IMG/VR virus record: IMGVR_UViG_3300031951_000389
Coordinates: 1 to 42,153 of that record
Source of the DNA: a virus
Direction: 5' to 3' (one strand)
Length of the DNA: 42,153 bases
Shown here: piece by piece, positions 3,891 to 29,350 of the stretch
Layout of the letters: the number at the start of each line of letters is the position of its first letter
Position numbering within the stretch: position 1 is the stretch's first letter
Made by a program: the position numbers and the translations under genes
Notes under the pieces: model-generated
What the model was told of the DNA's origin: nothing
The model's database searches: none
The model's input: the letters and a program-made list of their open reading frames with translations, nothing else

Positions 3891-5702
3891 TCAGGCCGTC
3901 GCCATCCGGTAGGCACCCTTCGACTCGGCCTTGGCCACGCCGAAGGAGAAGTGACCCCGCACCTGGATGCCCAGCGTGTCGAAGTCGGCTTCGGCCTGCT
4001 GCACGGTCGGCGTCCGCTGACCCTGCAGGAAAGCCACCTCCATCGCCGGCAGCTCGCCGGGGTTGGCCACGAGCCACCACGTCGAAGCGCTGGTGAGGTA
4101 GGAGCTGGCGACCACCTGGTAGCGGCCCGCCAGAACGTTGACGTTCGTGCGGGTCGAGTTCTCGCCGGTGATGAGCAGCGAGCCGCTCATCAGTTCGGAA
4201 GCGGTGATCTCGTTCTCCGGCGACACGAGCAGCATCGCCGGCGAGATGCCGAGCGGGTTGCCGTCGCCGTCCTTGAGCTTCCGGTAGGACGCCGCAGCCG
4301 TCTTGAGCGACCCGATCGCGAGGGCGTTGCCGCTGGCGGCCGTTTCCTTCGCGAAATAGGTGCCGTTGTTCAGCTCGAACTCCGACCAGAACACCTTGTT
4401 GAGCTTGATCGCCGCACCACGGCCGAGCCGCTGCGGGACCACGCTCAACGCACCGAGATCGTCGTTCACGATGTCAACCATCGTGATGCTGGACATGCGG
4501 CCGTAGAGGTTGGCCTTGATCGAACGGGTCTCGTCGCCGGCCTCGGCCTGCTTGAGCTCACCGCCGTTGCCAACCTCGTCGAACTCGAAGCCGCCCGTCA
4601 CGCGGACGCCAGTGACCGACTTGTAATCGGAGACCGAGCGAACCGACGCGATCATGTCCCAGTTGCTCTCGACCGCCGTGAAGCCCTGGAGGAGGAACTT
4701 CCCGTAGGTCGCCGCCAGCACGTTGCTGATGGAGTGGGTTGCGAACCCGCTCGCCAGCACCTCGCGGATATTGCCGGCCGAGATGCGAGCCGAGCCCTGG
4801 TAGCCGTTGGCACGAGCGGCCTCGATGAGCACCTCACCCAGCGACGTGTGACCACGACGCCGATCGGCAGCCTCGAGGGTCTTGCCGTCGTACAGCCGAT
4901 CCACCCCCGGCAGGCCGCCGGCCAGGCAGAGGGCCGCTTCGATCACCTTGGGCTCGCTGGCCGCGGCCACGTCAACGACGTGAACGGCAGGAGCCTTGGG
5001 GCGCTCGGCACGGACCTCGGCCAGCCGCTCGGCCCGAATCTTCTCGAAGACCAGGCTTGCGATGTCCTCGGCGGTCACGGCCGGAGCCTCGACCTTCTTT
5101 TCCGCGGCGACGATCGTCGCGGCTTCCGTCTGCGGCGCGGCGGCCTCGACGGGCTTCTCGTTGAGCTGCTCGCTCATAGAAACACCCTCATTCGCTTCGG
5201 CAGCGATCGCCGCGGACGTATTGGCGTCCGCACCAAAAAGGACCACACTCGTCTCCCGCAGATCGGAGGCACGAACCACCGACACAGGCCCGGCGAACTC
5301 GCGGCCGTTCACGGCCACGACCCCACCGGAATTGACGTTTTCGATGTTGCCGGCGTCGGCACCGATGGACGCCTGCAATGGGATGCCGGCCCGCGCGAGG
5401 CGGGCGATCTTTTCGGGGATCTCGCCCTCGGCCAGCAGCTCGCCGCGAATGACGAGCTGCGACCCGTCGTTCACGATCTCGGTCGAGCGGCCAATCACGG
5501 CATCCAGCGACCGCTCGTGAGCCCACAGAATCGGGATCGACGCCTTGGCCGTGTTCATGCCTTCGAGATCCACAACCAGCGGGTTGCGGCTCCACCCCTG
5601 GCGGATGGCGGCCCCGGTGTAGGCGACCAGCTCAAACGTCGGCACCTTGCCGGGCTCGGACGCCTCGATACGCAGCTCGGTCGAAAGCGAAATGCGATTC
5701 AT
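3891..5702 (-). CDS. Prohead protease-major capsid protein fusion
   Basis: 603 residues. The N-terminal 170 residues form a prohead serine protease of the U35/S78 type: PILWAHERSLDAVIGR (His62), GIPLQASIGADAG (Ser112) and LRETSVVLFGADANT. A charged Ala/Glu-rich linker (about 175-235) is followed by a Mu gpT-like major capsid domain (about 270-603, with EVLIEAARANGYQG, NVNVLAGRYQVV and DFDTLGIQVRG). In many phages these are two genes; here one frame carries both, so the protease and delta-like linker must be removed from the shell by self-cleavage. The ATG overlaps the portal stop (ATGA). High confidence in both domains. Confidence 0.92.
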   Translation of the reverse strand: MNRISLSTELRIEASEPGKVPTFELVAYTGAAIRQGWSRNPLVVDLEGMNTAKASIPILWAHERSLDAVIGRSTEIVNDGSQLVIRGELLAEGEIPEKIARLARAGIPLQASIGADAGNIENVNSGGVVAVNGREFAGPVSVVRASDLRETSVVLFGADANTSAAIAAEANEGVSMSEQLNEKPVEAAAPQTEAATIVAAEKKVEAPAVTAEDIASLVFEKIRAERLAEVRAERPKAPAVHVVDVAAASEPKVIEAALCLAGGLPGVDRLYDGKTLEAADRRRGHTSLGEVLIEAARANGYQGSARISAGNIREVLASGFATHSISNVLAATYGKFLLQGFTAVESNWDMIASVRSVSDYKSVTGVRVTGGFEFDEVGNGGELKQAEAGDETRSIKANLYGRMSSITMVDIVNDDLGALSVVPQRLGRGAAIKLNKVFWSEFELNNGTYFAKETAASGNALAIGSLKTAAASYRKLKDGDGNPLGISPAMLLVSPENEITASELMSGSLLITGENSTRTNVNVLAGRYQVVASSYLTSASTWWLVANPGELPAMEVAFLQGQRTPTVQQAEADFDTLGIQVRGHFSFGVAKAESKGAYRMATA

Positions 5703-13535: not shown

Positions 13536-13750
13536 GTCTCAATCTCCGGCTTGTGAACATTCCCAACTCGCACAATGCGATCCGACTCACCGTTTGCCAC
13601 GTCCTGAATCTGGCTCAATGCCTTCATTGCCGGCAGGTCGCCAGACTCGTAGGCATCAAGTGCCTGCTTGACCTTTGCCAGCCGCTCGACCGCCACGGCT
13701 CCGCGTTGGTTCTTGCGGTTGGCCCACGGCGTTGAATCGTGCCATGCCAT
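13532..13750 (-). CDS. Hypothetical early protein
   Basis: 72 residues from the ATG at 13750, which overlaps the recombinase stop (TGATG) and has GGAGG at 7 nt. Predicted mainly helical (AVERLAKVKQALDAYESGDL). No family recognised. It sits between the recombinase and ssb, so an accessory role in recombination is possible but unsupported. Confidence 0.55.
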   Translation of the reverse strand: MAWHDSTPWANRKNQRGAVAVERLAKVKQALDAYESGDLPAMKALSQIQDVANGESDRIVRVGNVHKPEIET

Positions 13751-14592
13751 CACTGCACCTCCACGAGGCTAGGAGTCTGCGGGGCGTGCTCTCGAATCTG
13801 GCCCCAATCTATGTAGGCCTGGGCTGCTAGGGTTGCGGTCCGATGACCCAGGTGGAGGCTTGCTTTGCCTGGGCTACGAAGCTCTATGTGTGTCGCTCCG
13901 CTCCTTCTCAACCACTTTGACGTGCCTGGAAGACCGGCCGCGACACAGAGCTGCCGCCACCACCGCCACGCTTGGCGAGGCTTGCAGGCCCACCCGACGA
14001 TCCGGCCATCCGGTGATTGCTCGAGCATCCGCAGGCAGGCCGCGACACAGGCCGGCGTGAGCACCTTGTGCAGCGGGTCGCCCGTTTTGCTCTGGGTCCA
14101 CCGCAGCACGTCACCGTCTAGGTTCTCGGCCGAAAACCGCCAAATGTCGCCGTGCCGGCTGCCCGACTCGTAGCCGAGCAAGATCCACGCCACGAGCCAA
14201 TCACCGATGTTGGCACCAGACCGCATCCAGTGGCCGCGATACTCGCCAGCCTTGTCCAGCAGCGTCCGTACCTGCTCAATCGTCCATGCCCGTGTCGGCG
14301 GCTTCTTGGCCTTGATCCGCATGACGCCGCGCGGCCATTCGGCAACCATCCGCTTCTCGTAGGCATAGCGCCATAGCGACAGCAGGATCGTCCGTTCGCT
14401 GCGAACCGTAATGCCAGACACGACGGCCATGCGGGCCTTGATGTAGGCGTTCACGGAATCGGCCGACACGACGCCGCCGGCCTTTGCCAGACGCCGCACG
14501 TTCTGCTGGTAGACCGAGCTGACGACACGATCCGCAAGGTACGCTTCGGCAACGTCCTTGAACCGCACGGCTTTGGTGGATTGCTTACGCAT
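13750..14592 (-). CDS. Tyrosine recombinase 2
   Basis: 280 residues. The ATG at 14592 has GGAGGT at 5 nt and overlaps the upstream gene by 8 nt. A core-binding domain (about 1-95) precedes the catalytic domain with Arg146 (ESGSRHGDI), Lys169 (WTQSKTG), Lys226-x-x-Arg229 in place of the usual HxxR (KWLRRSG), His250 (HLGHR) and Tyr260 (AQAYID). WTQSKTG and KWxRR are shared with the integrase at 17301, so the two are paralogues. It lies inside the early replication operon, away from the attachment site. It may resolve genome dimers or serve as a second integration or inversion enzyme. Confidence 0.85.
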   Translation of the reverse strand: MRKQSTKAVRFKDVAEAYLADRVVSSVYQQNVRRLAKAGGVVSADSVNAYIKARMAVVSGITVRSERTILLSLWRYAYEKRMVAEWPRGVMRIKAKKPPTRAWTIEQVRTLLDKAGEYRGHWMRSGANIGDWLVAWILLGYESGSRHGDIWRFSAENLDGDVLRWTQSKTGDPLHKVLTPACVAACLRMLEQSPDGRIVGWACKPRQAWRWWRQLCVAAGLPGTSKWLRRSGATHIELRSPGKASLHLGHRTATLAAQAYIDWGQIREHAPQTPSLVEVQ

Positions 14593-17300: not shown

Positions 17301-18194
17301 ATGTTCCGCAGAGCCGGCCCATCGACACTTGGGCAATATGCGAGGGAGGGGTATAGCCTGCTCCGCGACGTGAAACCGGACACAGTCCGGCAGTACGTCA
17401 TCGTGGCGGACCTATTTGAGCGGTGGGCCGGCGGGCCGGTCCCACTGGATTCTCTGGACGAAAAGAGCGTTTCGGCCTGGCTGCGCGACTATTCCGCGAC
17501 TCGCCGGCCGGCCACCGTGAGGGGCAAGAAAAACATGATGCTGGCCTTGTGGCGTGCGGCTGCGGACGACGGGGCCTGCGAGGAGCCCGTGGGCCGAAGG
17601 GTGCGGAAAACGCGGGTTCCGCAGTCTCCCGTGACCGCCTGGACGAAAGAGGAGGTCGAGCGGCTCCTGGTCGCCTGCCAAACGCTTCCCCGCTGGCACA
17701 AATGCGGACTCCGCCGAAGTGTCTGGTGGGATCTCGCCGTCAGAGTGGCCTGGGACTCCGGAATCCGGTGGGGAGACCAAGTCGAGCTGCCGGTCTCGGC
17801 AGTCCGGCCAGATGGCACGGTCTGCTGGACGCAAAGCAAGACGGGCAAGGTCGTCACGTTTCGGCTTTCGCCGTCCACGATGGCGGCGTTGGCCGCGAGC
17901 CTCGCGTCGTGCCCCAGAGCCCTTGTGATGCCGTGGCCGTCCAGCCGCGAGACATTCCTAGACCAGGTGGAGCGGATCGTGAAGCGGGCCGGAATCCGAG
18001 ATGGGACGTGGAAGTGGATTCGTCGCGGAAGCGGTACAGACGTCGAATTGCAGCAGCCGTATGCCGGCCATCGCCACTTGGGCAACACGCGATCGGTCTT
18101 CGAGCAGAGCTATGGCGACCAATCCATCCTTGGCCGCACCGTGCCAACGCCGCGGGAGCTGCTCGTGGATGCCCTCAATCGCACAGGCGGGTAG
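17301..18194 (+). CDS. int: Tyrosine integrase 1
   Basis: 297 residues; the ATG at 17301 has GAGG at 6 nt. The N-terminal core-binding domain spans about 1-100. Catalytic residues: Arg156 (SGIRWGD), Lys180 (WTQSKTGK), Lys238-x-x-Arg241 replacing HxxR (KWIRRG), and Tyr271 (FEQSYGD). The usual LGH is LGN (HLGNTR, 259-264) with His257/His259 nearby, an unusual substitution. It lies next to the tRNA-fragment attachment site, so it is the likely integrase. It is the only phage-lifestyle gene on the plus strand left of the accessory operon and is a paralogue of the recombinase at 13750. Confidence 0.9.
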   Translation: MFRRAGPSTLGQYAREGYSLLRDVKPDTVRQYVIVADLFERWAGGPVPLDSLDEKSVSAWLRDYSATRRPATVRGKKNMMLALWRAAADDGACEEPVGRRVRKTRVPQSPVTAWTKEEVERLLVACQTLPRWHKCGLRRSVWWDLAVRVAWDSGIRWGDQVELPVSAVRPDGTVCWTQSKTGKVVTFRLSPSTMAALAASLASCPRALVMPWPSSRETFLDQVERIVKRAGIRDGTWKWIRRGSGTDVELQQPYAGHRHLGNTRSVFEQSYGDQSILGRTVPTPRELLVDALNRTGG

Positions 18195-20681: not shown

Positions 20682-21638
20682 ATGACCGCGACAAAGACCG
20701 AGACCCGAGCCGACATTTACGAGACCATCACGAGCGCCATCGTCGCCCGCATCGAGGCCGGCGACGTCCTCCCGTGGCATCAGCCCTGGCAGGCCGGCCA
20801 CGCCGCCGGCCCGGTCTCGCGACCGCTCCGCCACAACGGCCAGCCGTACCAGGGAATCAACGTGCTTTGGCTTTGGATGACCGCCCACGGCCGCGGCTAC
20901 ACCTGCCCGCTCTGGCTCACCTACCGCCAGGCCCAAGAGTTGGGCGGCCATGTCCGGAAAGGCGAGAAGGCTACGCCCGTGGTCTACGCTTCCACGTTCG
21001 CGAAGGATGAACAGAACAGCGCCGGCGAGACCGTCCGCCGAAATATCCCGTTTCTCAAAACCTACTCCGTTTTCAACGCGGAACAGTGTGACGGGCTGCC
21101 CGGCCATTTCACGGCCCAGCTTCCACCGCCGGCCGGCCACGTTGACCCGCTGCCCGCCGTGCTCGACTTCGCCCGCCACACTGGCGCCGATGTTCGCGAG
21201 GGCGGCGCACGAGCGTACTACAGCCCGGCCGGCGATTATGTGCAGATGCCGCACGCGGCCACGTTCGAGAGCCCCGAGGCCCACGCCGGCACGCTCGTGC
21301 ATGAGCTGGCCCACTGGACCGGCCACACGTCGCGGCTCGCGCGTGACTTCACGGCCGCGAAGCGTTTCGGGGACGAAGCCTACGCGGCCGAGGAACTGGT
21401 AGCCGAGCTGGCCGCCGCATTTCTCGCAGCCGACATCGGCTTCGAGGCCCAGCCCCGCGACGACCACGCGGCCTACTTGGGCTCATGGCTGAAAGTGATG
21501 AAGGCCGACAAGCGAGCGATTTTCACCGCCGCCAGCGCGGCCAGCCGGGCGGCCGCCTACCTGCACTCTCTCCAGCCGGGCGGCGCCGCCGACCAGGCCG
21601 ACGACGCCGCGGCCGACGCCGAGACCGTCACGGCTTGA
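20682..21638 (+). CDS. ardC: ArdC-type antirestriction protein
   Basis: 318 residues; AAGGAG lies 6 nt before the ATG. The N-terminal ssDNA-binding domain (about 10-140) has YETITSAIVARIEAGDVLPW, PYQGINVLWLWMTA, LTYRQAQELGGHVRKGEKAT and a VFNAEQCDGLP strand. The C-terminal M78-like zinc peptidase domain has HELAHW (207-212) and YAAEELVAELAAAFL. ArdC proteins protect incoming single- or double-stranded DNA from restriction. Fully typical length. It has its own promoter and is the best-identified gene of the operon, marking it as a probable anti-defence island. Confidence 0.92.
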   Translation: MTATKTETRADIYETITSAIVARIEAGDVLPWHQPWQAGHAAGPVSRPLRHNGQPYQGINVLWLWMTAHGRGYTCPLWLTYRQAQELGGHVRKGEKATPVVYASTFAKDEQNSAGETVRRNIPFLKTYSVFNAEQCDGLPGHFTAQLPPPAGHVDPLPAVLDFARHTGADVREGGARAYYSPAGDYVQMPHAATFESPEAHAGTLVHELAHWTGHTSRLARDFTAAKRFGDEAYAAEELVAELAAAFLAADIGFEAQPRDDHAAYLGSWLKVMKADKRAIFTAASAASRAAAYLHSLQPGGAADQADDAAADAETVTA

Positions 21639-25150: not shown

Positions 25151-25410
25151 TCCGCGACATTCTCCGCGCCGCCCTGGTGCTCGCCGTGCTCGCCGTGGGC
25201 ACGTCGCTCGTGGTCGAGGCCCGTTGGCAGCTCGCCATGATCGACGCCGCCCACCGTGGGCTCGTGGCCAGCCACGCCGCTCCGCCCCAATGGCAGCCTA
25301 TGCCCACGCCCGCCCACGCCGCCCCAGCCACGCCGGCCGAGGCCCCGCTACGCCGGCTCGGCCGGGCGGCGCTCGACATGGCCGACGCCGCGCTCGGCGT
25401 GGTCCGTTAG
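25147..25410 (+). CDS. Small membrane-anchored protein
   Basis: 87 residues; the ATG overlaps the Prim-Pol stop (ATGA). IRDILRAALVLAVLAVGTSLVV is a membrane anchor; the rest is Ala/Pro-rich (PMPTPAHAAPATPAEAPLRR) with a terminal helix. Last gene of the rightward operon; its stop overlaps the stop of the convergent gene by 4 bp and no terminator hairpin is seen between them. Confidence 0.6.
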   Translation: MIRDILRAALVLAVLAVGTSLVVEARWQLAMIDAAHRGLVASHAAPPQWQPMPTPAHAAPATPAEAPLRRLGRAALDMADAALGVVR

Positions 25411-26102
25411 TCGAGCACGCCCGCAACAATCACCTGCAGAGAGGCCGCGGGCCGATCGACCGTCAGAGCCACGCCCGTCGCGGTGGCCGTGGCGTTGGCC
25501 GTGAGCGTGATCGCGGTGCCGCTCGTGACGCTGGCAATCTTCGCCGCGGCCGGTATGCCGGTGCCGGCCACGCTCATGCCGGCCTCGAGCCCCGTCGTGC
25601 TCGACAGGCCCGTGACGGCCGCCTGCCCCGTGGTTGTGTTGCCGGTCAGGCTATAGACCTGGTCCGTGTTCACGACGTCCAGAGCCTTCGACGTCCCACT
25701 CGTGGCCAGCCCGGCCCGCGGTGCCGTCACTAGGACGAGGCCCTCCGGGGCGACCACCAGCGTGCCCGAACTGGAAAAGCCGCTCCAGCGGTCAGAAGGC
25801 GTGCCGCCAACCGTGAATCCGGTAGCCGTCGAGAGGTTGCGGAACAGCAGTGCCTTGACCTTCCAGATGTTGATTGAGCCGCTCGCCCCGAATACAGATC
25901 GGGCGAGCGCCGTCAGGTCGATCGACTGCGATTGGCCGGCCGCGATGGAGTAGGTGTTGCTCCAGAATGAATCCGCCTGCCCGGCGCCGGTGCCGTTGTC
26001 GAGGCTCAACGCCACATTCGCGGCGACGGCATCAGTTGCCGTGCCGTCATCCCATGAAGGATTCAACTGCACCACGCCCGACAGTGAAAACGACTGCGCC
26101 AT
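25407..26102 (-). CDS. Beta-rich virion-associated protein
   Basis: 231 residues; GAGGGG lies 7 nt before the ATG. NVALSLDNGTGAGQADSFWS and LTALARSVFGASGSINIWKV form the first half; the C-terminal half has TGLSSTTGLEAGMSVAGTGI and TAITLTANATATATGVALTV, an Ig-like or beta module common in phage structural proteins. Probably a decoration, tail or fibre-tip protein. It is the last gene of the leftward late block and converges on the accessory operon. Confidence 0.65.
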   Translation of the reverse strand: MAQSFSLSGVVQLNPSWDDGTATDAVAANVALSLDNGTGAGQADSFWSNTYSIAAGQSQSIDLTALARSVFGASGSINIWKVKALLFRNLSTATGFTVGGTPSDRWSGFSSSGTLVVAPEGLVLVTAPRAGLATSGTSKALDVVNTDQVYSLTGNTTTGQAAVTGLSSTTGLEAGMSVAGTGIPAAAKIASVTSGTAITLTANATATATGVALTVDRPAASLQVIVAGVLD

Positions 26103-26103
26103 G

Positions 26104-26478
26104 CTACTTCCCCTCGCGAATGGTTTGGCCGATCTCTGCGAGCCGCTCACGCCAGCGGGCATCGCTCCACCACAGTTCGAGAATCACATGCGAAATGCCG
26201 GCCACGGCCCCGGCTAGCAGCAGTTGCCACATCGGCCCGACGCCGTGGCGGGCTTCCCACTGCTCACGCACTTGAGCCCGCAGCAGCACCATGGCGTGAT
26301 CGACGCTCTTATGAAGGCGGCCGCCGGACCGCTCCGCCGCCTCGAGGTGGTTGTGCGGCCAATGCCGCAGCACGAGCCGCGTCAGCTCGTCCACCCGCCA
26401 GCTCTTGCAGTAATGCACGCGGCCACCCAGCCGGTACCGGACATGGGCGGAAAGCTGCTCTAGGGCATCCACGCTCAT
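26104..26478 (-). CDS. Membrane-associated protein
   Basis: 124 residues; ATGA overlap with the preceding gene. A basic, soluble N-terminal part (VRYRLGGRVHYCKSWRVDEL) and one membrane helix near the C-terminus (MWQLLLAGAVAGISHVILEL, then WW). Single late membrane helices fit a spanin- or pinholin-like role in the lysis block; this is inference from position. Confidence 0.6.
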   Translation of the reverse strand: MSVDALEQLSAHVRYRLGGRVHYCKSWRVDELTRLVLRHWPHNHLEAAERSGGRLHKSVDHAMVLLRAQVREQWEARHGVGPMWQLLLAGAVAGISHVILELWWSDARWRERLAEIGQTIREGK

Positions 26479-26771
26479 CGCACCTGGGGGCATTTGCCGT
26501 CCGGACATTTGCCGGCCTTACACTTACACGATGCAGGGCAGGGGCACGGCTGGACGATATGGCCGTCCGGCTTCCACTTGCCGCCGACGCACGTCCCGCC
26601 GCACGCACATTCATTGACCGGCGTCGGCGGTGCCGGCGGTGCCTGCTCCGGCGCGAAGGAGGCGTAGGCCACGGCCACGGCCGCCGCAGCCCGCGGCCGC
26701 TCGACGTCCACCGCGGCCGGGTCAGCGGCCAGCCAGGCGAGGCACGAGAGGAACCATTGCCACAGGCTCAT
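26475..26771 (-). CDS. Cys-rich exported or membrane-bound small protein
   Basis: 98 residues. N-terminal helix SLWQWFLSCLAWLAA resembles a signal anchor. The C-terminal 45 residues contain CACGGTCVGGKWKPDGHIVQ then PCPCPASCKCKAGKCPDGKC, ten Cys in a CxC/CxxxC pattern suited to disulfides or metal. TGATG overlap with the upstream gene. Placed right after the papain-like peptidase in the same block, it may act at the host envelope. Confidence 0.7.
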   Translation of the reverse strand: MSLWQWFLSCLAWLAADPAAVDVERPRAAAAVAVAYASFAPEQAPPAPPTPVNECACGGTCVGGKWKPDGHIVQPCPCPASCKCKAGKCPDGKCPQVR

Positions 26772-27031
26772 CACCACCCCCGCGCGTGATTGAGTGTCGG
26801 AGCCCCGTCCGGCCCGATCGGAGCGTGGATTGCATACGCTTCGCCGCCCGCCGTCGGCGGCTGCTCGGCCACCAGGGCAATCCAGAGGAACGACTTCGCC
26901 GCCCGCGCGATGAAGCGCAGCACCGGGCGATCCTTGGCCGGCGGCCCCAGCGGCGAGCTCGAGGACGACGCCAACCAGTAGCCAGCCGCCAGGGCGAGCA
27001 CGATGAACACGGTGTTGCGGTCTACCCTCAT
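26771..27031 (-). CDS. Small membrane protein
   Basis: 86 residues from the ATG at 27031, whose ribosome site is GGAG with spacer TATTTCG. The string GGAGTATTTCGATG is nearly the same as the dispersed iteron motif. Residues 6-25 (NTVFIVLALAAGYWLASSSS) are a membrane anchor; the rest is soluble with a second hydrophobic patch (FLWIALVAE). Candidate lysis-block membrane protein. Confidence 0.6.
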   Translation of the reverse strand: MRVDRNTVFIVLALAAGYWLASSSSSPLGPPAKDRPVLRFIARAAKSFLWIALVAEQPPTAGGEAYAIHAPIGPDGAPTLNHARGW

Positions 27032-27044
27032 CGAAATACTCCAA

Positions 27045-28193
27045 TCAGAGAGCCAGGGCACGAATGATCGGCGGGTCGGCAGGCTTGGCGGGCTCGGCCG
27101 GCGGCTGCTGCAGCCACCCTCCGTGGTGCAGGTCTCGCCACTCGAATCCGCTCACCCCACCTATGACAAATGAATCTGACTGCCGCAGAATCGCTTCGGC
27201 GTCCGCCCGCGTCATCCAGAACGAGCCGTCCGGCTGGTCCGGCGGGTGCTTTGGGCCTGCCACCCAGCCCTTGCCCCACGAGTTCAAACACAAGACGCCG
27301 TCGCGCGGGTTGACCATCCGCGGCTCATTGCCCTTGCCGCTGTTGGCCGCGTACTTGATCGAGCACAGGAGCATACAGTGGTTCCAGTTGCCGCCACGCG
27401 GCAGGAACCCATCGGCATCACGCTGGTTTGTCTTGGCGAATCCGACATTGCTACAGACGGGCACCACATACCCAGCCTCGAGCGCGGCCGTCAGCGACTC
27501 CCAATCCTCGCAGAGAGCGACGGCCCTAGCCGTATGTTTCATGCCGGCCTTGCCGATCGCTGGCGGGGCGCCGTAGGCACCCCACTCCTTCGACCGCGGA
27601 ATCGAATACGTCGTCAGATCGACGTCGCCGTATTTCTCACGATAGACGATCCCACCCTGGCCGCTCTTGAGGCCGGCCACCCAACGAGCCGCCGCCGCCC
27701 CGTAGCTGCCGTCGCCCCACCCCGCAAACGTCACCGGCGGGAGCCTCGCGGCCGTCCGACTGCCCCCATAGATAGGCTCGGTCGCGACGAGCTTGGGCGG
27801 GTGCGGCATCTTGCCGGTGGCCCAATCCACACTTTGAGCGAAAAAACTTCCGAGCCCCCACCCAAACGAAACGCAGGAGCCGTGCGGGCCTTGGTTCCAT
27901 GGCTCGAACGGCTTGCCGTACACCTCCCGGTGGGCCGCATCGACATACCTATACAGGTAGGTATCGCGGCCTTGGGCCTTGGCCAGACATTCCGCTCCGG
28001 CTTGGCGAAACATCGGCTCGTCCAGCTCTGATAGGAACTCGCGGACCCCTGCCGGGTTTGGGACGTAGCCCATGCCATGCACGTCGCCGGCCACAGGCAC
28101 GCGCCGCCCGGCCTGGCCGGCGACGACGAACGCCGCGACGACCAACGCCACGGACGCCACGAGTGTCAGAGCGTTGCGCCTATCGCGTGACAT
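27045..28193 (-). CDS. Exported papain-like (C1A) cysteine peptidase
   Basis: 382 residues. Residues 9-30 are a signal peptide or anchor (LTLVASVALVVAAFVVAGQA). The papain fold has NQGPHGSCVSFGWG with Gln101 (oxyanion) and Cys107, His272 in GGNWNHCMLLC, and Asn304 in LNSWGKGW. A Pro-rich tail follows. All catalytic residues are present. An exported protease amid small membrane proteins in the late region fits cell-wall or envelope degradation at lysis, or virion entry. It overlaps the previous gene by 14 nt. Confidence 0.85.
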   Translation of the reverse strand: MSRDRRNALTLVASVALVVAAFVVAGQAGRRVPVAGDVHGMGYVPNPAGVREFLSELDEPMFRQAGAECLAKAQGRDTYLYRYVDAAHREVYGKPFEPWNQGPHGSCVSFGWGLGSFFAQSVDWATGKMPHPPKLVATEPIYGGSRTAARLPPVTFAGWGDGSYGAAAARWVAGLKSGQGGIVYREKYGDVDLTTYSIPRSKEWGAYGAPPAIGKAGMKHTARAVALCEDWESLTAALEAGYVVPVCSNVGFAKTNQRDADGFLPRGGNWNHCMLLCSIKYAANSGKGNEPRMVNPRDGVLCLNSWGKGWVAGPKHPPDQPDGSFWMTRADAEAILRQSDSFVIGGVSGFEWRDLHHGGWLQQPPAEPAKPADPPIIRALAL

Positions 28194-28734
28194 CAGCGGC
28201 GGCCCTCGCGATGGTGCGGTATGCGGAGACCCACTTCGACCGCTGATCCGGCGTCACCGGCCCGCCGGCGACCCCTACCACCTGGTCGAGGTACTGGTGG
28301 ATCGCGTCCCGCACATGCGGCTGCCGGCTGCCGAGACTCTCGCCCCGCATCCGCCCCTCGCGGGCCGCGACACGCAGATCGTCGAACGCTACGCCTGTCG
28401 TGAGCCGCGGCTGCTCTTTCATGCCGTCCTGCTCGATGCACGCCGCGATCTCATCGCAGAGGGCCTCGAGCATTTGGGCATCGGCCGGGGCAGTGGGGCC
28501 GACGAACTTGCCGGCGAGCACAATGCCCGCGTCCGGGGCCGGAGGGGCAGGGGTGGGCACCGGCGGTGCGGCCGGCATACGCCACGAGTACGCCACGACC
28601 GCGGCCGCAATCAGACCGGCCGCGGCCAGGTGCCGGCGGTCCAGCTCGGGCACGTCAACGTGGTCGAGCATCTTCACAACCTGCGGCCACCACAAAGCTG
28701 CGGCCGCAGACAGGAGGAGAATCGCAGTCAGCAT
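28180..28734 (-). CDS. Membrane protein, possible lysis accessory
   Basis: 184 residues; TGATG start. Two N-terminal membrane helices (LTAILLLSAAAALWW and HLAAAGLIAAAVVAYSW), a Pro/Ala linker, then a soluble helical domain (MLEALCDEIAACIEQDGMKE, RDAIHQYLDQVVG). Its place directly before the papain-like peptidase suggests a holin- or spanin-like partner, unproven. Confidence 0.65.
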   Translation of the reverse strand: MLTAILLLSAAAALWWPQVVKMLDHVDVPELDRRHLAAAGLIAAAVVAYSWRMPAAPPVPTPAPPAPDAGIVLAGKFVGPTAPADAQMLEALCDEIAACIEQDGMKEQPRLTTGVAFDDLRVAAREGRMRGESLGSRQPHVRDAIHQYLDQVVGVAGGPVTPDQRSKWVSAYRTIARAAADVTR

Positions 28735-29111
28735 CAGCGGCTCCGGATCATCGGCAGAAGGGTTTCGGTTGCCCCGCCGGCGAGCGCCAGCACGAGCGAG
28801 CGGACGGCAGGCCGGGCGACCATCCACAGCGGCGCCATCGTCCAGGGCACGCACTTGTCGGCCACCAGGTCGAACAGGCTGGCAACGGCGTGCAGGGCGA
28901 TCTCTTTCTTCTCCGCCCCGGTGAGGTTCTGCATCACGTCGAGGGCCTGGATCGAAATACGAAGCAGGGCCACGAGGAGCGTGCCGAACTCCGCCCACGT
29001 TAGGCCGTCAGCGGCGGCGGCCCGCGCGGCCTGGAGGAACGCCGAGACCTTGCCGGCCACGTCGTCATAGCTGCCGGCCGCAATCACCGGACCCGTGGCG
29101 ACATTCGTCAT
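28734..29111 (-). CDS. Helical late protein, holin-like context
   Basis: 125 residues; ATGA start overlap. TWAEFGTLLVALLRISIQAL and GAEKKEIALHAVASLFDLVA, then WMVARPAVRSLVLALAGGAT. The EKKEIxLxAVAxLFDxVAD...PAVRSLVLALAxGAxExLLP pattern recurs in environmental tailed phages without a proven role, to my knowledge. Amphipathic helices suggest membrane association. Confidence 0.6.
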   Translation of the reverse strand: MTNVATGPVIAAGSYDDVAGKVSAFLQAARAAAADGLTWAEFGTLLVALLRISIQALDVMQNLTGAEKKEIALHAVASLFDLVADKCVPWTMAPLWMVARPAVRSLVLALAGGATETLLPMIRSR

Positions 29112-29350
29112 TTGATGAGCCCCTTTTCCCACAGTTCTTTGGCAGTCTGGACGTTCACGCCCAGCTCGTAGGCCAGCAGCTCCCAAAACGTGACCGACTG
29201 CTTATTGCTGCTCGTAATGCAGCCGACGCCCACGCTGCGGCGATGCTGGTAGTGGACGTGCTCGCCGCCCTCGCCGGGCGGAGCAAGGGCCTCGCGGCCT
29301 TTGGCCGATCGCCGGAACAGCGTTTCGTTCACCCGTGCCCGGCTAATCAC
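29108..29350 (-). CDS. Small late protein
   Basis: 80 residues from the GTG at 29350 (AGGAG 10 nt upstream, inside the tail of late box B). ISRARVNETLFRRSAKGREA, then HVHYQHRRSVGVGCITSSNK and FWELLAYELGVNVQTAKELW. A longer start at 29398 would lie upstream of the box and is less likely. No family recognised; the C-terminal helix-turn-helix-like end may bind nucleic acid. Confidence 0.5.
   Translation of the reverse strand: MISRARVNETLFRRSAKGREALAPPGEGGEHVHYQHRRSVGVGCITSSNKQSVTFWELLAYELGVNVQTAKELWEKGLIK

Follow-up and report, generated by a model that had tools for sequence, protein, structure and literature searches.

Peptidoglycan hydrolases are the expected lysis enzymes of bacterial tailed phages. 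The viral record IMGVR_UViG_3300031951_000389 (42,153 nucleotides, GC 65%; its full length is referred to here as the window) raises the question of which enzyme opens the host cell, as a sequence-only reading had recognised no such hydrolase and had proposed lysis by proteolysis, with an exported papain-like peptidase among small membrane proteins as the acting enzyme. The minus strand of the window encodes terminase, portal, a head protein-maturation protease fusion, tape measure and tail genes, followed past the tail genes by genes for a metallophosphoesterase and a dNMP kinase, after which comes the block in question, running from 29350 to 25407. The plus strand carries early genes, and integrase-type genes are also present. 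The virus is best explained as a temperate-looking phage of the siphovirus type that infects planctomycetes. Two integrase-like genes (PHROG 1) lie on opposite strands, at 13750-14592 (-) and 17301-18194 (+), and an ArdC-type anti-restriction protein is encoded at 20682-21638 (+; PHROG 7245, E 1.5e-98), in line with the ArdcN and MPTase-PolyVal domains detected across the window proteins, which further include Resolvase, LexA-type and CsrA domains.

The peptidase and its neighbours

The genes of the block and the head protein gene are listed below. Type A denotes cassettes with the papain-like peptidase, type B those with a trypsin-like protease.

29108..29350, minus strand: g80, 80 aa, no hydrophobic segment, 5' end of the block (29 loci)
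28734..29111, minus strand: g125, holin-like small membrane protein with one or two hydrophobic segments, common to type A and type B cassettes
28180..28734, minus strand: g184, N-terminal hydrophobic segment(s), Pro-rich linker and conserved domain of ~110 aa (alignment; adjoins the peptidase in ~80 loci)
27045..28193, minus strand: papain-like (C1A) peptidase, 382 aa, predicted to be membrane-anchored (ORF, conservation, AF2, Foldseek/VIA)
26771..27031, minus strand: g86, small membrane protein with two weak hydrophobic segments (1.46-1.52; locus comparison, hydrophobicity)
26475..26771, minus strand: Cys-rich protein, 98 aa, 10 Cys, C-terminal CPDGKC tail (ORF, composition)
26104..26478, minus strand: g124, membrane protein whose single hydrophobic segment is C-terminal (29 loci, hydrophobicity)
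25407..26102, minus strand: g231, 231 aa, weak hydrophobic stretches (PHROG 22694, E 9e-11, function unknown)
3891-5702, minus strand: major head protein with a fused domain of a head maturation protease (PHROG 4523 and 133)

The peptidase contains a single strong hydrophobic segment at its N-terminus (residues 8-26, KD 2.54), and the predicted topology is that of a type-II membrane protein. Gln101, Cys107, His272, Asn304 and Trp306 were invariant, first among 8 and later among 54 aligned relatives. The AF2 model calculated from the 54-relative alignment reached a pLDDT of 87.6 and was placed among the C1A peptidases by Foldseek and VIA, the nearest solved folds being xylellain, cathepsins and papain (xylellain Z 21.8, pro-cathepsins 18-20, Cwp84 17.5). 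Xylellain (3ois) and Cwp84 (4ci7) share the C1A fold and the catalytic residues with the phage enzyme, but are non-phage proteins with 16-19% identity; Cwp84 is a bacterial C1A protease whose association with the surface layer of C. difficile is taken from the PDB title. The protein has the papain fold, the Gln-Cys-His-Asn catalytic set and the NSWG motif of a C1A peptidase, and the description as a C1A peptidase with all catalytic residues was borne out. Since neither the peptidase nor any other window protein matched PF00112 above the cut-off, the label 'C1A-like' refers to fold and residues and assigns no PF00112 membership. Searches with the peptidase against Pfam, PHROG, PDB sequences and INPHARED gave no match, a profile search of the PDB sequences with the peptidase alignment returned nothing, and neither a peptidoglycan-binding domain nor a recognised peptidoglycan hydrolase domain was found in the protein. 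Based on fold and catalytic residues it is classified as a protease with predicted proteolytic activity. A pro-like segment extends over approximately residues 36-73; since the region N-terminal to the catalytic domain aligns with the propeptides of several pro-forms, an inhibitory pro-segment is possible. In one relative (L005) a TGA lies within the genome-search match, yet reading from 5842 gives an open frame.

The Cys-rich protein was found as described before, and four of the five small membrane proteins that had been counted in the block could be confirmed (g125, g184, g86 and g124), whereas the fifth, the 80-aa protein g80, has no hydrophobic segment, and its membership of the module is uncertain. 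The protein g231, which other loci place upstream of g125, is a probable virion or tail protein and likely not part of a lysis module. Apart from the peptidase, no recognised fold was found among the block proteins, and neither Pfam nor PHROGs matched any of them to a known holin or spanin family; g125 belongs to no Pfam or PHROG family. At a distant locus (L158), one weak Rz-like PHROG match was obtained (E 0.019). The block does show the adjacent, same-strand, small holin-like membrane proteins by which lysis cassettes are recognised, and overlaps and common strand suggest that its genes are co-transcribed.

Conservation of the module and search for an endolysin

A scan of viral sequences with the peptidase yielded at least 552 relatives, while the corresponding scan of genome contigs gave a single match, in a Planctomycetaceae MAG; the g184 alignment (A6) was too diverse to serve in a contig scan. 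The order and strand of g125, g184, peptidase and g86 recur in about 80 loci, as part of an ordered block that continues with the Cys-rich protein. About 10 loci lack g125, and some of these carry a YeaQ/Transgly_assoc-like 3-TM protein after g86. In several lineages a small 3-TM protein of this kind is encoded close to the peptidase (L048, 2898-3146, and similar loci; L155, 12103-12354). Based on transmembrane calls by a simple hydropathy cut-off, small transmembrane proteins made up 51 of 99 proteins within three genes of the peptidase, compared to 53 of 874 elsewhere on 17 viral contigs; near diverged peptidase relatives from Planctomycetota the corresponding numbers were 23/68 and 9/155. 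Several neighbours in these diverged loci are not homologous to those in the window, and in several of them a lipobox protein, judged by eye, adjoins the peptidase. Both the recurrence of the block and the enrichment of membrane proteins exceed chance.

The late operon closes with the block, past the tail genes, both in the window and in close relatives; in other genomes it is flanked by prohead protease and capsid gene, or lies beside or before TerL. Because it is found at differing genome positions, the block moves as a unit.

The reported lack of a recognised peptidoglycan hydrolase in the window was reproduced with every search applied. Among the 60 window proteins, Pfam showed none in the best 25 of 29 families, the other four being weaker than E 7e-4, and PHROGs showed none for the main window genes. 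Searches for five endolysin families, each with working controls (PF00959, PF01510, PF01464, PF13539 and PF05257), were negative in the window, and Amidase_2, Phage_lysozyme, SLT, M15_4 and CHAP were likewise absent from 24 type A contigs, most of which may be fragments. An endolysin in the missing part of the genome had been named as one of the findings that would overturn the proposal. Two relatives (G003 and G010) possess exact end repeats of 127 bp and are therefore probably circularly complete genomes, and Pfam detected no peptidoglycan hydrolase among 61 proteins of G003 or 53 proteins of G010, where the result covers the best 25 of 33 families and the other eight were all weaker than E 1.2e-4. 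A peptidoglycan hydrolase of a novel type could be hidden among the unannotated genes.

Exchange of the protease and the walls of the hosts

Among 80 loci with g125, the peptidase was found within about 1 kb in 65, 14 end too early and one (L228) lacks it, so that 65 of the 66 testable loci carry the peptidase. In L228 the layout of prohead protease, g125 and capsid gene is kept, and the peptidase is replaced by a different protein of 289 aa, along with a secreted protease of the trypsin-like type and further membrane proteins. This exception led to the type B family, for which scans with the 289-aa and the trypsin-like protein gave 99 loci; as these come from overlapping, partly redundant contigs, the number of independent loci is lower. 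Within the 99 loci, g125 occupies the same slot in 85 and a match to the trypsin-like protease was found in 93, while a type A peptidase or g184 was found in none. The type B protease has a signal peptide and belongs to Trypsin_2 (Pfam, E 7.8e-17), with conserved His, Asp and Ser and the GDSGGP motif kept. It is fused to a module of four Cys and a C-x-DGRC tail, a resemblance to the Cys-rich protein of the window that is suggestive only.

For the 289-aa protein, the AF2 model remained at a pLDDT of 31.7 and hhalign detected no relationship with the peptidase. Relatives from two Planctomycetota loci, L355 and L356 (HMM E 1e-10 and 6e-10), designated type C, show a Cys-His-NSWG pattern and a sub-threshold match to PF00112 (E 0.015), and because of these the 289-aa family is probably papain-like. 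None of four peptidases and two type B proteins matched any of 50,697 phage records.

The host survey covered 392 Planctomycetota genomes, sampled evenly. Relatives of the peptidase were present in 12 of these, two further genomes contained type C relatives of the 289-aa protein, and MurG was missing from 30 at a threshold of E 1e-10. All five genomes with close relatives of the peptidase lack MurG (p 2e-6), compared to none of the seven with distant relatives. If MurG matches weaker than E 1e-20 are scored as absent, 7/7 are without MurG, type C included (p 7e-8). YTV (PF07639) was found in all 14 genomes that encode a peptidase of type A or type C, compared to 1 of 22 MurG-positive controls, picked by handle number, and 5 of 24 MurG-negative ones; once likely near-duplicate genomes, judged from matching hits, are collapsed, the count is 9/9. 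Since the YTV and MurG patterns track host clades, so that the comparison is confounded by phylogeny, and the phages are likely specific for host clades, the link between peptidase and YTV or MurG is an association and no proof. Planctomycetales have been described to possess cysteine-rich YTV wall proteins, most of them lacking peptidoglycan genes (PMC8567305). On the other hand, lysozyme-sensitive peptidoglycan sacculi have been reported for planctomycetes (PMC4432640), which is in tension with the former, and a wall of protein instead of peptidoglycan is contested.

Explanations for the block

Taken together, we consider it probable, with considerable room for doubt, that the block serves for lysis, with a protease that cuts the protein envelope as its enzyme. 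Proteolytic lysis is the best-supported reading because complete relatives showed no Pfam peptidoglycan hydrolase, a cassette with a trypsin-like protease replaces the papain-like one, and the hosts are associated with YTV and, for close relatives, with lack of MurG. To this extent the original proposal stands; lysis by the block would still be a deduction from these patterns, and protein in place of peptidoglycan is the contested point. The peptidase would be held in the inner membrane by its uncleaved N-terminal segment, facing the periplasm, with g125, g86 and g124 as putative holins or antiholins, and g184, with its transmembrane part and presumed periplasmic domain, and the Cys-rich protein as candidate partners, regulators or spanin-like parts. 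As infection comes to its end, the membrane proteins might permeabilise or depolarise the inner membrane, whereupon the protease would be freed or activated and would cut the proteinaceous layer of the envelope, with cysteine-rich YTV wall proteins probably among its targets, until the cell bursts.

Papain-fold enzymes that cut peptidoglycan peptides are familiar from NlpC/P60, CHAP and LysA N5 domains. The peptidase might accordingly be an ordinary endolysin in disguise, acting on the peptide part of peptidoglycan, as suggested by papain-fold phage proteins named 'Peptidoglycan binding-like' in BFVD, weak LysA matches, the papain-family N5 domains of mycobacteriophage LysA (PMC3314691) and the sacculi mentioned above. 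We regard this as unlikely, given that the closest solved folds are xylellain, cathepsins and papain, that no peptidoglycan-binding domain was found, that type B cassettes hold a trypsin-like protease and that MurG is missing from each of the five hosts with close relatives. The membrane anchor and the tight coupling to g184 would also fit a tethered protease with another task in the envelope, such as superinfection exclusion, receptor removal, or remodelling or quality control in the infected cell; some genomes have the block among head genes, and its role in lysis is deduced. The late-operon position in the window, the enriched holin-like neighbours, the strong conservation of the module and the lack of another lysis candidate in the Pfam scans of the complete relatives make this explanation improbable as well. 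A virion or capsid maturation protease, as the position between prohead protease and capsid gene or adjoining the capsid gene in L023, L092 and L095 might suggest, is very improbable, since the window already encodes a maturation protease in its head protein fusion, far from the block, and the peptidase has a membrane anchor.

The proposed proteolytic cassette resembles the holin-endolysin-spanin cassettes of diderm phages in being a late cluster, in grouping small membrane proteins with a single exported or membrane-anchored hydrolase and in its mobility as a unit. It differs in having a papain-like or trypsin-like protease as its hydrolase; no holin or spanin family is recognised and no peptidoglycan hydrolase was found. 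Peptidases of the papain family or resembling cysteine proteases also occur within the lysis cassettes of mycobacteriophages (Lysin A N5 domains, PMC3314691) and of Gordonia phage BetterKatz (gp29, PMC4982276), but those are peptidoglycan endolysin domains or adjoin a glycoside hydrolase, whereas the window peptidase is the sole enzyme candidate and appears membrane-anchored. A literature search found no paper on planctomycete phage lysis, and a survey of viral lytic proteins (PMC12596118) mentions neither papain, C1A, trypsin nor planctomycetes. A widespread phage group, comprising at least 552 type A viral loci and type B, with proteases as the sole candidates for the lysis enzyme would represent a new mode of lysis. 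Such a cassette bears on the dispute whether Planctomycetales are held together by peptidoglycan or by a protein wall, which would become testable if protease lysis is true. More tentatively, and with slightly more doubt than confidence, phages of YTV-walled planctomycetes may have dropped peptidoglycan hydrolases and may digest the Cys-rich wall with interchangeable papain-like and trypsin-like proteases, in which case lysis genes would report the load-bearing layer of the host.

In Planctomycetota prophages, thioredoxin-like proteins adjoin the peptidase (L148, 10660-11184; L149, 8714-9121; L355, 9309-9689; L356, 10505-10885), those of L149 and L355 being confirmed by Pfam. They could keep a thiol protease reduced or open the disulfides of wall proteins.
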